Positions 39,483-48,005 of a stretch of DNA of 64,000 nucleotides are shown here, in pieces. The stretch comes from Thermococcus onnurineus NA1 (GTDB lineage Archaea; Methanobacteriota_B; Thermococci; Thermococcales; Thermococcaceae), in NCBI RefSeq assembly GCF_000018365.1, contig NC_011529.1, positions 806,001-870,000 on the forward strand. The letters run 5' to 3'. How positions within the stretch are numbered: the first letter of the stretch is position 1; each line of letters opens with the position of its first letter. The notes beneath the pieces are model-generated. The model was not told where the DNA came from. It did not search any database and worked only from the letters and a program-made list of their open reading frames with translations. The position numbers were made by a program, and so were the translations under genes.

Positions 39483-40370
39483 TCATTTCAGTATCTCAGC
39501 CTTAATTCTCTCAGCAATCTCTTTTATCGCCTGGGATGCCTTTGAGTCTGGAAAGGCCTCCACAACAGGCTTAAGCATCGCCATGCTCTTTGGTACCGCC
39601 TTGTCGTAGGGAACCTCGCCAAGTATCGGGATTCCCTCGCTCTCTGCCCACTCGTGGAGGGCTCTAAATCCAGGGTTGAAGTCGGCCTTGTTGATTATAA
39701 GGTAAGCCGGCTGCCTGAAGTGCTGGATGACCCTATAAGCCCTCTGAACATCGCTGAGGGAGGCTGGCGTCGGCTCGGCAATGAGTATTGTCAAATCTGC
39801 ACCGCCGATGCTCGCTATAACCTGACAGCCTATTCCAGCTGCGCTGTCCACTATCATGTGCTTAAGGCCAAGCTCCTTCATCAGGTTCTTCGCCCACTCC
39901 TTCTCCTCAGTTACGAGCTTGCCGCTGTTGGGCCTGCCGACGTCGAGCTGGGCTGAGATTAGCGGGAAGCCGTACTTCGTGGTGGTCTTCCTTATTATCC
40001 CAGAGCGGACTTCCTCGAGGGTTATGGTTCCTGGAACCGGGCAGACCAGACTGCAGACGTTGCAGCCTTCACAGGTGAGTTCACTCACAACGTAGTCGCC
40101 GTCGATGACCTTGATACAATCGTAGGGGCAGCGCTCCTGACAGATGCCACAGCGTATGCAGCTCTCCGTGTTTATGTGAGCGACCTTGGCGCCAACCAGC
40201 TCCATCTCCTCTTCCCAGCGCTCGACGCCAAGAAGGAGGTCGAGGTTCGGCGCATCTGCGTCCGCATCCACCGCCACAAAGTTGTACTCATCCTTTAGAA
40301 GGTAGAGGAGCGAAGCAGTTACGGTGCTCTTTCCTACGCCGCCCTTACCGCTCGCTATGACGAGTTGCAT
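39483..40370 (-). CDS. MinD/ParA-type ATPase with inserted ferredoxin domain (copy 1)
   Basis: 295 residues. Deviant Walker A ASGKGGVGKSTVTASL at the N-terminus. An inserted 2[4Fe-4S] ferredoxin module at about 58-100 has eight cysteines (CIRCGICQERCPYDC and CEGCNVCSLVCP). The switch regions are IVDSAAGIGC and AEPTPASLSD. The family is common in anaerobes next to NifX-like and hydrogenase genes and is thought to take part in cluster assembly. It follows its paralogue with a one-base TGATG overlap. Confidence 0.88.
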   Translation of the reverse strand: MQLVIASGKGGVGKSTVTASLLYLLKDEYNFVAVDADADAPNLDLLLGVERWEEEMELVGAKVAHINTESCIRCGICQERCPYDCIKVIDGDYVVSELTCEGCNVCSLVCPVPGTITLEEVRSGIIRKTTTKYGFPLISAQLDVGRPNSGKLVTEEKEWAKNLMKELGLKHMIVDSAAGIGCQVIASIGGADLTILIAEPTPASLSDVQRAYRVIQHFRQPAYLIINKADFNPGFRALHEWAESEGIPILGEVPYDKAVPKSMAMLKPVVEAFPDSKASQAIKEIAERIKAEILK

Positions 40371-41239
40371 CACTCACCACCCCCGATGAATTCGACAACC
40401 CTCTCGGCAATCTTCCTGAAGATTCGGGCCTCAGGATAGTCGCTCAGAACTATCGGCCTTCCTTCCACGTAGCTTCGTATGACGTTCTCGCTGTAGGGGA
40501 TCTCGGCTATTATCTCGGCGCTATAGCGCTCGGCAATTTCCCTGACCTTTCCAACGTCACCCAGATCGGAGCGGTTAACGATTATCATAGCCGGAATGTC
40601 CATGAGCCGAGCCAACCGGAGGATAAGTTCGCTGTCATGAAGCCCGAGCGGTGTCGGCTCGGTGACGGCTATGATGAGCTTAGAATCTTCAAGTGCCTTC
40701 GAAACGGTATTGCTCGTTCCGGCAGCAGTGTCAACGAGCAGAAGCTCCTTATTTAAGCTCTGGGCCCTCTTCTTCGCTCTTGAAACGATGGGCATGGCCC
40801 TCTCCTCGCCCTCCAAAAGCCTGCCCGTAACGAGCGGGAAGCCGTAGGGCGTCTCCGTTAGATATGTGTGGCCCATAAGCTTCTTGCCGGGCAGTATCGC
40901 TCCGGGAACCGGGCAGACTATCTCACAGGCTGCGCAACCAGAACAGAGGTTGGGCATCAGGAAGGGAGTTCCGTCACGCATGGTTATTATCGCGTGCTCC
41001 TCACAAACTTCTGCGCACTTTCTGCAGTGAGTACACTTGGAGTAGTCAAAGCGCGGCATGAAGAGCTCAACGGGCTCCTCGTTCTGGAGCTCAACTCCAA
41101 GAAGCAGATGGTCGTTTGGTGCCTCAACATCCAAATCGGCCAGAACAAGATCAAAGTGCTCTTTAAGGGCTATCGCGAGATTTATCGCAATGGTGGATTT
41201 TCCGGTTCCACCTTTTCCTCCGCTCACTGCGATCTGCAT
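40370..41239 (-). CDS. MinD/ParA-type ATPase with inserted ferredoxin domain (copy 2)
   Basis: 289 residues, same design as its neighbour: VSGGKGGTGKSTIAINLAIAL, ferredoxin cysteines CTHCRKCAEVCEEHA and CSGCAACEIVCP, then LVDTAAGTSN and TEPTPLGLHD. The second cysteine group keeps four Cys. The two proteins probably act as a heterodimer. ATG 41239 follows GGGGGTGAGG. It diverges from a NifX-like gene; the 71-nt gap holds a shared control region. Confidence 0.88.
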   Translation of the reverse strand: MQIAVSGGKGGTGKSTIAINLAIALKEHFDLVLADLDVEAPNDHLLLGVELQNEEPVELFMPRFDYSKCTHCRKCAEVCEEHAIITMRDGTPFLMPNLCSGCAACEIVCPVPGAILPGKKLMGHTYLTETPYGFPLVTGRLLEGEERAMPIVSRAKKRAQSLNKELLLVDTAAGTSNTVSKALEDSKLIIAVTEPTPLGLHDSELILRLARLMDIPAMIIVNRSDLGDVGKVREIAERYSAEIIAEIPYSENVIRSYVEGRPIVLSDYPEARIFRKIAERVVEFIGGGE

Positions 41240-41255
41240 TACCTCACCCCCAGAA

Positions 41256-41300
41256 TTAGGCTAACCTAAAAGTTTTTAAGCTTTGTGCATATGCTCACAC
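41256..41300. promoter_or_regulatory. Control region between MinD pair and NifX-like gene (block A)
   Basis: From 41256 the sequence reads ATTAGGCTAACCTAAAAG, then a TATA element TTTTTAAGC, then TGTGCATATGCTCACA. This 45-nt block is about 80% identical to the one at 42871-42906 upstream of the IssA-like gene. TTAGG...CCTAA forms an inverted repeat with 4-nt spacer just before the TATA element. It serves the NifX-like gene at 41311 and may also control the divergent MinD pair. Confidence 0.6.
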
Positions 41301-41310
41301 GGTGATGGTC

Positions 41311-41709
41311 ATGAGGTGCCTGAAAGTTGCCTTTGGGATGGAGAACGATGAGACACTCATAGATGCTCACTACGGCGATTCTGAGTTCTTTGCAATATAC
41401 GAGGTTTGTGAAGACGGGAGCGTTAAGCTCCTTGAGGAAAGGGACAACAAAGCCAGAAATGTGGAGGAGCACGACGAAGGACACGGCGATCCGAGGAAGT
41501 TCAGGGCGATAGTGAGTCAGCTTATAGACGTCGACGTTCTGGCTGCCTTTAGAATGGGGCCGAACTTTCTAAGGATAAGAGACCAGAGCGACAAGGTGGC
41601 CTTCTTCACGAGAACGAGGGACCTAAAGCTCGCCCTCCAGAGGGTTGCCGAGAACTTCGATGACCTATGGGAGCAAGTGCAGAAAAAGAGGGCCAAGGCA
41701 AGAGTATGA
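41311..41709 (+). CDS. NifX/NifB-type iron-cofactor binding family protein
   Basis: 132 residues of the dinitrogenase Fe-Mo cofactor biosynthesis fold (RNase H-like): VAFGMENDETLIDAHYGDSEFFAIYEV, then a conserved FRAIVSQLIDVDVLAAFRMGPN. No nitrogenase genes occur here, so a general iron-sulfur carrier or storage role is more likely. ATG 41311 follows GGTGATGG; GTG 41302 and ATG 41305 are alternatives. It lacks the Gly/Arg tail seen in the related genes at 42.9 and 43.8 kb. Confidence 0.8.
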   Translation: MRCLKVAFGMENDETLIDAHYGDSEFFAIYEVCEDGSVKLLEERDNKARNVEEHDEGHGDPRKFRAIVSQLIDVDVLAAFRMGPNFLRIRDQSDKVAFFTRTRDLKLALQRVAENFDDLWEQVQKKRAKARV

Positions 41710-42075
41710 GCTTTTGGGAGTCTCTCGCGCAGGTGAAGTTCATAATCCCTTGCGCCCTCCACTATTTTCATCGATTACAGCCTCAACCTCCTAACGTTCA
41801 GGTACTATTCCCATGGCTTGCCCCCCTTCTGTCTGGCATCCTCTCTGGTTAGTCTTCCACCTCCAAGTGCCAAAAGCATGAGAGAGACCATCTCTTGGCT
41901 TCAAGGTACTATCCAATGGCCAGACATCCAGTATATCCTATCGAGACACTCTAATAGTTCCAGGCCTTTCACTGATCCCATGTGAACCGTTCACACTAGC
42001 AATCCACTTGTCTACTGGTAGTCATGACAAGGTTCATAATGTTATGAAAGAATACCCCCACATGGAGGTTCGGCG
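41710..42075. other. Intergenic stretch with possible gene relics
   Basis: 366 nt. A 48-codon frame beginning ATG 41706 (overlapping the previous stop) and a 34-codon frame from 41880 are open on the plus strand, but neither has a clear ribosome site or recognised family. The DUF2250 gene's ribosome site GGAGGTT is at 42064-42070. The area looks like decayed sequence. Confidence 0.4.
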
Positions 42076-42615
42076 ATGGGAGATGCGAATACACGAAAAG
42101 AACGGCCCGCCCCGTATCGAAGCCTTGAGCTTCTTCCCATCCATCTGTACGTCCTAGTTCACCTCAAGAAGGCCAATGTTGAGTATGCCAAGATGATAGC
42201 AAGGATGACAGAACTTCCACTTGAGATGATCAATAGCGCCATAATGGATCTAATGGAAGCGGGCCTCGTTGAACGCGACTCTGGAAGCGCAGTAAAGAGG
42301 AGCAAAGCTCGCTTTAAGAAGGCCTTCGAGGTTCACAAGCATCATACCTACTACCGCCTTTCGAGGGAGGGAGAGCTCTTTGTCCGCTCGATTGATGAGA
42401 AATGGTTGAAATGCTACTTCAACGCCATCTTTCCAGATGGATGGAAGTTCATTGGGGTCCTCATCAAGAGCAGAGACTTTGAAGACGCATGTAAAAAGGC
42501 AAAGGCTAAGAACTGTGCAGGATTAAAGGAAGAACTTATTCTCCACCGTTTTATCACGTCTACTGGGAGGAAGACGAGGTTCTTTAAGCTGTTCTGTAAG
42601 TTTCTTGGACTCTAA
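42076..42615 (+). CDS. DUF2250 winged-helix protein
   Basis: 179 residues. An N-terminal winged helix-turn-helix (IHLYVLVHLKKANVEYAKMIARM, LPLEMINSAIMDLMEAGLVERD) is followed by a basic region and HTYYRLSREGELFVRSI, then a Cys/Lys-rich C-terminal part (KAKAKNCAGLKEELILH). DUF2250 proteins are probable transcription regulators. Its placement between two NifX-like genes that share promoter sequences makes it a candidate regulator of them. Start ATG 42076 with GGAGGTT 5 nt upstream. Confidence 0.75.
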   Translation: MGDANTRKERPAPYRSLELLPIHLYVLVHLKKANVEYAKMIARMTELPLEMINSAIMDLMEAGLVERDSGSAVKRSKARFKKAFEVHKHHTYYRLSREGELFVRSIDEKWLKCYFNAIFPDGWKFIGVLIKSRDFEDACKKAKAKNCAGLKEELILHRFITSTGRKTRFFKLFCKFLGL

Positions 42616-42870
42616 TGAGAGCAAAGTTTTCCCAAGAGCGCGTAGAGCTTGGCCATATGCTGAAATGGACAGATTAATGTCCTAGAGTCCAATGTCAGGC
42701 TGTTGAAAAGGCCTCAAGATTAGTGGCCAGTGTTCCGACGACCCTACCATCTATAATTGCCCTGTTTGGTAATTCTCTTCCAGTGGAGAGCAAAGAGCAG
42801 CGTTGAACCTATTGAGTCACCAATCCCCCAAGCTAAGAGCACGAACCAGAATATGGATCCCAATTAGGAT
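42616..42870. other. Intergenic stretch with minus-strand gene relic
   Basis: About 255 nt ahead of the IssA-like promoter. On the minus strand, 42808 to 42695 stays open for 37 codons and reads like protein (LLSTGRELPNRAIIDGRVVG near its middle) before TGA, but has no proper start and is preceded by a stop. It may be the end of a lost gene. Nothing else recognised. Confidence 0.35.
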
Positions 42871-42906
42871 AACCGAAAAGTTTATAATCATGTGCATATG
42901 CACAAA
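42871..42906 (+). promoter_or_regulatory. IssA-like gene promoter with 14-bp palindrome (block B)
   Basis: ATTAGGATAACCGAAAAG (42872-42889 region) precedes the TATA element GTTTATAATC. The perfect palindrome TGTGCATATGCACA at 42891-42904 follows, between TATA and the expected start of transcription. That position suits a repressor. Block A at 41256-41300 is a near copy. Confidence 0.65.
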
Positions 42907-42934
42907 ATAACAGAAGGAGTGAGAGGTGGTGAAG

Positions 42935-43528
42935 ATGAGGATCGCAATACCCACCAATGGGGGAGGCCTCGAGGATACTGTCGCCCCAGTCTTTGCAAGA
43001 GCTCCAGCTTTCGTCATAGTCGAGGTAGATGAAAAGGGTAACGTTACCAATAGCAAGGTTATTCAGAACGGCGCCGCCATGGCAGGTGGAGGAGCAGGAC
43101 CATTTGCTATCCAGACCCTCATCAATGAGGGCGTCGAGGCCGTCATTGCACCACAGGTTGGTCCCAACGCCCTTGGAGCGCTTCAGGCTGCAGGCATAAG
43201 GCTTTACCAGATCGCCCCAGGAACTCCGGTTGAAGAGGCAATTAAAGCCGTCACCACCGGAAGCGTTCAGCAGCTTAGCACTCCGGCCCCAGCAACCCCA
43301 GTTGCGCCAGCAGCTCCATCGCCAGCTTACGGCCCATATGCTCCGGCGTATCCAGCCTACCCGGCTTACGGTTACGGCTGGGGCCGCGGCGGCGGATGGA
43401 GCAGAAGCCGCGGCTTTGGACGCGGATGGGGCAAAGGCGGAAGAGGCTGGGGAGTCCGCCTGGGCTACTGTCCCTGGACAGGACGACCAAACAGAAGAAC
43501 CCTTCGCTGGCTCTACGGCTGGTGGTGA
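42935..43528 (+). CDS. NifX-family protein with Gly/Arg/aromatic tail, IssA/SipA-like
   Basis: 197 residues. Residues 1 to about 110 are the NifX-type domain (RIAIPTNGGGLEDTVAPVFARA, AVIAPQVGPNALGALQAAGI). An Ala/Pro/Tyr-rich linker (about 118-150) leads to a cationic tail with GWGRGGGWSRSRGFGRGW and a Trp-rich end. From memory, Pyrococcus IssA (SipA, PF2025) has a NifX-type domain with a cationic glycine-rich tail and stores iron-sulfur as thioferrate particles; this is a plausible homologue but identity was not tested. ATG 42935 has GAGAGGTGGTG before it. Confidence 0.75.
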   Translation: MRIAIPTNGGGLEDTVAPVFARAPAFVIVEVDEKGNVTNSKVIQNGAAMAGGGAGPFAIQTLINEGVEAVIAPQVGPNALGALQAAGIRLYQIAPGTPVEEAIKAVTTGSVQQLSTPAPATPVAPAAPSPAYGPYAPAYPAYPAYGYGWGRGGGWSRSRGFGRGWGKGGRGWGVRLGYCPWTGRPNRRTLRWLYGWW

Positions 43529-43561: not shown

Positions 43562-43789
43562 ATGCCAAGAGGGGCAGGAAGAGGATACAGCAGGGGTTTT
43601 GGTAGGGGCTACTACCGAAGATCTTTTGGATTCTACGGGCTGATAGACCTGCTGTTCCTCATTGGGATACTGTACTTCTTTGTCAAGCTGTTCATCGTGG
43701 CTGCTCCCTATGCAGTCGGCTTGATAGCCCTGCTCATCCTGCGGGAATTTCTGAGACCAAGACTCTGGGGATGGAGAAGACCATTTTGA
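43562..43789 (+). CDS. Small membrane protein with Gly/Arg-rich N-terminus
   Basis: 75 residues. The first 20 (RGAGRGYSRGFGRGYYRRSF) are Gly/Arg/Tyr-rich and share the SRGFGRG string with the tail of the upstream IssA-like protein. Two hydrophobic segments follow (LIDLLFLIGILYFFVKLFIV and APYAVGLIALLILREFL). It might anchor the iron-sulfur storage protein at the membrane; this is inference. GGAGGC lies 9 nt before ATG 43562; same transcript as the upstream gene. Confidence 0.7.
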   Translation: MPRGAGRGYSRGFGRGYYRRSFGFYGLIDLLFLIGILYFFVKLFIVAAPYAVGLIALLILREFLRPRLWGWRRPF

Positions 43790-43844
43790 GCTTATGCAAA
43801 CTTTTTTAAGTTCGGCTTCCCTAATCCATGCTGGGGGTGAAAAA

Positions 43845-44252
43845 ATGAGGATTATAGTCTCAACTATCAACGGAGGAATTGATGACAGGGTCAATCAGGC
43901 CTTCGGAAGGACACCGACTTTCACCATAGTCGACGTCGAGAATGAAGAGATCGTGGACGTCCAGGTTGTCCAGAACCCTGGCTATAGCCAGCCGAGAGGA
44001 GCTGGAGTTACGGCGGCACAGTTCTGCATCGACCAAGGCGCCGAGGTCGTCATAGCGGGTCACTTCGGACCGAACTCCTACGGCGTTCTCCAAACTGCTG
44101 GCATAAGAATGGTCTCGGCACCGCCAACAATGACCGTTAGAGAGGCAGTCGAAGCCTTCCTCCGCGGCGAGCTCCAGGGTGCAGTCACGAGCCCTGGCAG
44201 ACACGGTGGCAGCCACGGCAGAGGCATGGGGCGCGGAATGGGCGGTCGATGA
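43845..44252 (+). CDS. NifX-family protein with Gly/His/Arg tail
   Basis: 135 residues. The NifX-type domain spans about 1-110 (RIIVSTINGGIDDRVNQAFGR, CIDQGAEVVIAGHFGPNSYGVL), with a short tail GRHGGSHGRGMGRGMGGR that could bind metal or anionic clusters. A tract AACTTTTTTAAG at 43799-43810 suggests its own promoter. ATG 43845 follows GGGGGTGA; the longer upstream frame lacks a ribosome site. It is a shorter relative of the IssA-like protein. Confidence 0.78.
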   Translation: MRIIVSTINGGIDDRVNQAFGRTPTFTIVDVENEEIVDVQVVQNPGYSQPRGAGVTAAQFCIDQGAEVVIAGHFGPNSYGVLQTAGIRMVSAPPTMTVREAVEAFLRGELQGAVTSPGRHGGSHGRGMGRGMGGR

Positions 44253-47648: not shown

Positions 47649-48005
47649 ATGCCAATGGGAATGGGACGCGGTTGGGGAAAAGGGCGGGGCAGAAGAAAAA
47701 AGATGAGGATGATAGGCTTCATCCCTCAGGTTAGACATTTCTATCCTGCATTACCGCCCATTGGACAGCCAAAGCCACCGATTTTCATGACTTATGAGGA
47801 GTTCGAAGCTCTGAGGCTGGTTGATTTTGAAGGGTTGACCCAGGAGGAGGCCGGAAAGCGAATGGGGGTTTCAAGAGGAACAGTCTGGAGAGCTCTGAGC
47901 TCAGCCAGAAAGAAAGTTGCTCAGATGCTGGTTGAGGGCAGAGAGCTGATAATCCTTCCTCAAGGAAATGAGGTCCCAAAGGACATTGCTGAAGAAGGCC
48001 CATAA
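47649..48005 (+). CDS. DUF134 (UPF0251) helix-turn-helix regulator
   Basis: 118 residues. A Gly/Met/Arg-rich start (MGMGRGWGKGRGRRKK) is followed by YEEFEALRLVDFEGLTQEEAGKRMG and the helix-turn-helix VSRGTVWRALSSARKKVAQML, typical of DUF134. This family is often found beside NifX-type and MinD-ferredoxin genes in anaerobes, and here the cluster is 4-8 kb away. The start is ATG 47649 or TTG 47640; the ribosome site is weak. TATA-like CCTATAAAC at 47611-47619. Confidence 0.82.
   Translation: MPMGMGRGWGKGRGRRKKMRMIGFIPQVRHFYPALPPIGQPKPPIFMTYEEFEALRLVDFEGLTQEEAGKRMGVSRGTVWRALSSARKKVAQMLVEGRELIILPQGNEVPKDIAEEGP

Follow-up and report, generated by a model that had tools for sequence, protein, structure and literature searches.

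The promoters of issA and of its nifX and minD neighbours in Thermococcus onnurineus NA1 are, as read from their sequence, composed of two separate predicted operators placed around one TATA box: a half-site of the known DtxR/IdeR kind and the palindrome TGTGCATATGCACA, a previously unassigned site that apparently belongs to the DUF134 family. We propose, with a probability of about 0.7, that Fe(II)-loaded DtxR and the DUF134 protein both restrain these iron-sulfide storage genes, and that sulfide would relieve the block when iron is present. Such a compact two-operator promoter would let one TATA box integrate iron with what is probably an iron-sulfide signal, and the model supplies a candidate regulator for the induction of issA by sulfide in the presence of iron, a response reported in 2010. 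It would also give an operator, a regulon and a role to a widespread family, DUF134/UPF0251, that to our knowledge is without an assigned function. Nearly every member of the Thermococcaceae has DUF134, and in two bacterial phyla the family occurs in 166 of 249 and 87 of 247 of the genomes sampled.

Composite promoters of the issA cluster

The features of the cluster are collected in Table 1; positions refer to the window, which is the whole 64,000-nucleotide stretch that was analysed, unless they are given as genome positions. A preliminary description had reported two near-identical promoters alignable over about 45 nt at roughly 80% identity, the second with a perfect 14-bp palindrome between TATA and the expected start, and both were found where it placed them. 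The copies at 41254–41302 and 42862–42909 align with 38 of 49 columns identical (78%) and one gap, each containing TTAGGnTAACCnAA, a TATA box and TGTGCATATGC(A/T)CA, and the palindrome of the second lies between the issA TATA box and the expected transcription start. The TTAGG...CC-AA element that had been noted before TATA is likewise present in both; it is not part of the palindrome motif and is better read as a separate operator of the known DtxR/IdeR type. A third, degenerate copy 5' of nifX3 (43787–43824) had been missed. It has the order seen at minD1, with 24 bp from half-site to degenerate palindrome as compared with 25 bp in relatives.

Table 1. Genes and predicted promoter elements of the issA cluster (window positions)
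Feature	Positions	Strand	Basis
minD2, second MinD/Mrp-type ATPase, 4Fe-4S motifs, operon with minD1	39483-40373	-	ORF, Pfam
minD1, MinD/Mrp-type P-loop ATPase, 4Fe-4S motifs	40370-41239	-	ORF, Pfam
DtxR/IdeR-type half-site TTAGGCTAACCTAA (TTAGG-N4-CCTAA, exact)	41256-41269	.	motif scan, literature match
AT-rich core GTTTTTAAG, putative TATA of nifX1 (+) and, reversed, of minD1 (-)	41272-41280	.	assigned from sequence
Candidate DUF134-type palindromic operator TGTGCATATGCTCA, 1 mismatch	41284-41297	.	motif scan, conservation
nifX1, NifX/Nitro_FeMo-Co domain protein (PF02579)	41311-41709	+	ORF, Pfam
DtxR/IdeR-type half-site TTAGGATAACCGAA 5' of issA, one change (CCGAA)	42864-42877	.	motif scan
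Putative issA TATA box GTTTATAA, BRE CGAAAA directly 5'	42880-42887	+	assigned from sequence
Candidate DUF134-type operator, perfect palindrome TGTGCATATGCACA	42891-42904	.	motif scan, conservation
issA (sipA) orthologue, PF02579 domain and Gly/Arg-rich tail	42935-43528	+	ORF, Pfam, literature
Small Gly/Arg-rich hydrophobic protein, between issA and nifX3	43562-43789	+	ORF
Degenerate third palindrome TGAGCTTATGCAAA, 5' of nifX3 TATA	43787-43800	.	motif scan
DtxR-like half-site TTCGGCTTCCCTAA of nifX3	43811-43824	.	motif scan
nifX3, third PF02579 protein of the cluster	43845-44252	+	ORF, Pfam
DUF134 (PF02001) HTH protein, sigma-70 region-4-like fold, proposed palindrome reader	47649-48005	+	Pfam, predicted model

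The genes minD1 and nifX1 diverge from one region of ∼45 bp (within 41237–41311) with one operator on each flank, and the shared core probably constitutes a compact bidirectional promoter. The half-site in this region is 5' of the BRE for nifX1 and, for minD1, between TATA and start. Between nifX1 and the DUF2250 gene, ∼360 bp (41710–42070) contain no convincing gene. The small Gly/Arg-rich protein encoded after issA has a hydrophobic stretch, and its gene is kept beside issA in many relatives.

In the genome-wide search for both motifs that the preliminary description had suggested, the palindrome at ≤1 mismatch occurred only at the two window sites in the whole 1.85-Mb genome, and the TTAGG element recurred at genes that include feoA and NBP35. 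The genome's third site, with two mismatches (genome position 337338), falls within the coding frame of an apparent methionine aminopeptidase and was rejected as a further regulatory site because it is intragenic. Among 94 Thermococcaceae genomes the palindrome is present at ≤1 mismatch in 90 and as the exact 14-mer in 85, and a reversed control sequence gave no match in any of them; the exact 14-mer is also absent from 21 genomes sampled elsewhere in the class. The rarity of the motif within the genome, together with its exact occurrence in 85 of 94 relatives against zero for the reversed control, indicates that the two-copy promoter is not due to chance. The titles and abstracts retrieved with the motif core TGCATATGCA included no relevant prokaryotic paper.

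The palindrome marks a predicted regulon that is family-wide in Thermococcaceae. In the ∼27 genomes whose sites were annotated, it stands at the promoters of issA (nearly all genomes), minD1-minD2/nifX1, nifX3, a further nifX paralog divergent from an FmdE-like gene (two loci), a sufC gene divergent from nifX3 and, in several Thermococcaceae, a CDF cation transporter gene (six loci). From the window a single regulon had been suggested for the two NifX-family genes and perhaps also for the divergent MinD pair, and the recurrence of the site at issA, minD1 and nifX promoters across relatives supports it for both. Conservation 5' of orthologues, whose absence had been named as refuting evidence, was found for 41 of 42 issA-type promoters in the case of the palindrome and for 36 of 42 in the case of the TTAGG box; where both elements are present they are 25–29 bp apart, with one exception. 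At minD1 promoters the palindrome (12 of 13) and the TTAGG box (13 of 13) occur in reverse order, 27–30 bp apart.

The TTAGG element as a DtxR/IdeR half-site

Among the known sites of IdeR is the half-site TTAGG-N4-CCTAA (PMC10317159), and the same TTAGG element is found elsewhere in this genome 5' of feoA (genome position 611442), a gltA-like gene (656260) and others, while TTAGGAAAACCTAA is directly 5' of the gene for the Mrp/NBP35 Fe-S carrier (1357434). Boxes with one mismatch are near genes for a CDF transporter, a ZIP transporter and a DtxR-family regulator (1835717). FeoA, NBP35 and DtxR (PF01325/PF02742) were confirmed by Pfam and the other target names were read from sequence. The agreement with the known half-site and the occurrence of the element at feoA, NBP35 and the DtxR gene mean that this half of the promoter is an operator of a known kind, with a box at an iron-uptake gene and, at one mismatch, at a DtxR-family gene, as is typical of DtxR/IdeR regulation. 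TTAGG-N4-CC(T/G)AA is thus the predicted DtxR operator of a metal regulon. P. furiosus DtxR has been cited as an iron regulator.

The promoters resemble the DtxR/IdeR iron box (TTAGGTTAGSCTAACCTAA) in the exact half-site sequence and spacing and in having feoA and the DtxR gene in the set, but differ from it in that a single half-site is paired with an unrelated second operator across one TATA box. At 41251 the full 19-bp box is incomplete, with 15 of 19 positions matching. NBP35 is an apparent member of the DtxR regulon, as TTAGGAAAACCTAA directly precedes it, and one NBP35 of Palaeococcus pacificus has been reported as sulfur-induced. Where the DtxR box is directly 5' of the BRE, as in issA, activation could also occur.

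The overlap of the 3' end of the element, CCGAAAA, with the BRE in issA and nifX1 would also be expected if TTAGG...CC-AA were only an extended BRE and no operator. This is very unlikely, however, given that minD1 and nifX3 have the element on the opposite flank of the TATA box and that it is also found at feoA, NBP35 and DtxR.

DUF134 as candidate reader of the palindrome

The preliminary description had put forward two proteins encoded in the window, DUF134 (47649) and DUF2250 (42076), as candidate regulators. The HTH gene DUF2250 is between the two promoters, and it separates nifX1 and issA in several relatives as well as here. Nevertheless, it is highly improbable that DUF2250 reads the palindrome: it was not found in a 20-kb region of P. 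pacificus with three palindromes, and Pfam describes the family as archaeal whereas related operators occur in bacteria together with DUF134. On the basis of that absence and that distribution DUF2250 was rejected. SurR also answers elemental sulfur in Thermococcales, but was rejected as regulator on reading the sequence; the site had been said not to fit GTTnnnAAC, and this motif is indeed absent from both promoters.

DUF134, by comparison of operators and proteins, is very probably the reader of TGTGCATATGCACA. The window protein is a clear member of the family (87.9 bits against a Pfam gathering cut-off of 27 for PF02001), and its predicted model (pLDDT 78) has an HTH of the sigma region-4 type. 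Sigma region-4 domains were the nearest matches in a fold search with this model, all with E values above 0.01, and a PDB sequence search gave no significant match. In the Thermococcaceae DUF134 is present in 85 of 94 genomes, nearly always as a single gene, and is ≤10 kb from a palindrome in 30 of 42 genomes. Matches in three genomes have one in-frame stop inside the matched range. The portions of the DUF134/UPF0251 literature that were retrieved contain no report of a regulator role.

The most telling evidence lies outside the archaea. In a set of 140 DUF134 loci sampled from two bacterial phyla, CATATG is the most enriched of the 64 palindromic hexamers in the 150 bp 5' of the DUF134 domain, with 44 occurrences where the average over the loci predicts ∼5, and 41 of the 44 are within 100 bp. 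Control palindromes showed little or no enrichment except TTATAA, which is part of the extended motif, the consensus of the bacterial sites being TTATGRGCATATGCYYATAA. RCATATGY occurs in 30 of 140 DUF134 upstream regions versus 15 of 496 for other ORFs of the same loci, with p = 2.5e-11, a value that ignores kinship and overstates significance because related genomes are treated as independent. In the Desulfocapsa group, IssA-like NifX genes are in operons of the order DUF302 - SBF permease - NifX - DUF134, and the sigma-70 promoter of these operons has TTGTGCATATG(T/C)TCA, also TGTGCATATG(T/C)TCA, over -10/+1. A universal stress protein is sometimes encoded between SBF permease and NifX.

The operator also co-varies with the recognition helix of DUF134, S-R-X-T, as judged from a few independent SRGT lineages. 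Every protein scored from the Thermococcaceae (30) and from the Desulfocapsa group (22) has G as X, and half-sites with TGTGC are those of groups with an SRGT protein, while P and Q proteins accompany ATGAA/ATTGA and ATGAG/ATAAG half-sites. TGTGCATATG was present at 1 of 4 further SRGT loci and at 0 of 138 non-SRGT loci. Hence a CATATG-centred palindrome is linked to DUF134 across lineages, and its half-site changes with the helix, two observations that lend weight to DUF134 as originally proposed.

Several observations are less easily accommodated. None of the Thermococcaceae DUF134 promoters examined has the palindrome, DUF134 is far from the palindrome sites in Pyrococcus-like genomes, and most bacterial DUF134 genes have no CATATG within 100 bp of the assigned start. 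Relatives at the class level have DUF134 with an HTH that is not SRGT, and the exact 14-mer is absent from them. Some genomes without a detectable DUF134 keep palindromes, which we attribute to gaps in fragmented metagenome-assembled genomes; presence and absence in Thermococcaceae are uninformative, as the gene is nearly universal and the exceptions are such assemblies. The lack of linkage in Pyrococcus-like genomes and of a site at Thermococcus DUF134 promoters would be consistent with some other conserved HTH protein reading the palindrome, DUF134 being only a functional neighbour. We consider this unlikely, since bacteria of two phyla have a related CATATG palindrome directly 5' of DUF134, and the half-site varies in step with the recognition helix of this protein.

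A two-input model and the response to sulfur

In the proposed mechanism, TTAGG-N4-CC(T/G)AA would be bound by the Fe(II)-dependent repressor DtxR and TGTGCATATGCACA by a DUF134 dimer through its sigma-70 region-4-like HTH. Because the sites flank the TATA box, either could block TBP/TFB or RNA polymerase, and between minD1 and nifX1 a single pair would serve the promoters of both divergent genes. Reduction of elemental sulfur to sulfide would lower free Fe(II) and release DtxR, an iron-sulfide signal would release DUF134, and with both released IssA, the NifX paralogs and the MinD carriers would be made, so that FeS could be stored and moved. What the genomes show directly is the two operators with their conservation, spacing and target genes, and the association of the palindrome with DUF134; direct binding, repression as the sign of control and the nature of the signal are what we infer.

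DUF134 might instead be an activator that recruits TFB from sites abutting the BRE at minD1, nifX3 and a fourth nifX, where the palindrome is immediately 5' of the TATA region, the usual place of an archaeal activator. This is possible but doubtful: the issA/nifX1 palindrome is between TATA and start, a typical repressor position, and so are the bacterial sites, over -10/+1 or -35.

The signal could tentatively be assigned to the store itself. None of 30 Thermococcaceae DUF134 proteins contains cysteine, whereas most bacterial members have cysteine-rich C-terminal tails, and some fuse DUF134 to a NifX (PF02579) domain (three loci). The contrast suggests a NifX-family sensor acting in trans: FeS-loaded NifX-family/IssA proteins may signal to the cysteine-free thermococcal DUF134, in which case the circuit would be the same as in the bacterial fusions and the FeS store would report its own filling to its own promoter.

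The 42891 site precedes the orthologue of P. furiosus issA/sipA, a gene that is reported to respond to sulfide only when iron is sufficient (PMC5524996). The double release would explain this requirement, and the palindrome and DUF134 supply a candidate regulator for a response to which the literature searched, as far as its accessible text goes, attaches no named regulator.

Published RNA-seq data for P. pacificus were compared by matching genes by gene order, PAP_06515 being nifX3 by position. The five most sulfur-induced genes are issA, PAP_06515, a CobQ/4Fe-4S pair and HypF, with log2 values of 6.23 for issA, 4.29 for PAP_06515 and 3.74 and 3.41 for the pair (PMC6981617). Four of the top five belong to the operons of issA (75-fold), nifX3 (20-fold) and minD1-minD2 (13- and 11-fold for the pair), each of which has its own palindrome. 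The sufCB genes are without sulfur induction (PMC6981617), and none of the four P. pacificus palindromes (≤1 mismatch) was traced to suf genes. Expression of feoAB rises with sulfur (PMC6981617), as expected if sulfide lowers free Fe(II) and releases DtxR. PAP_08665, which is 8-fold sulfur-induced, may be ∼5 kb or less from the fourth palindrome, according to its interpolated position.
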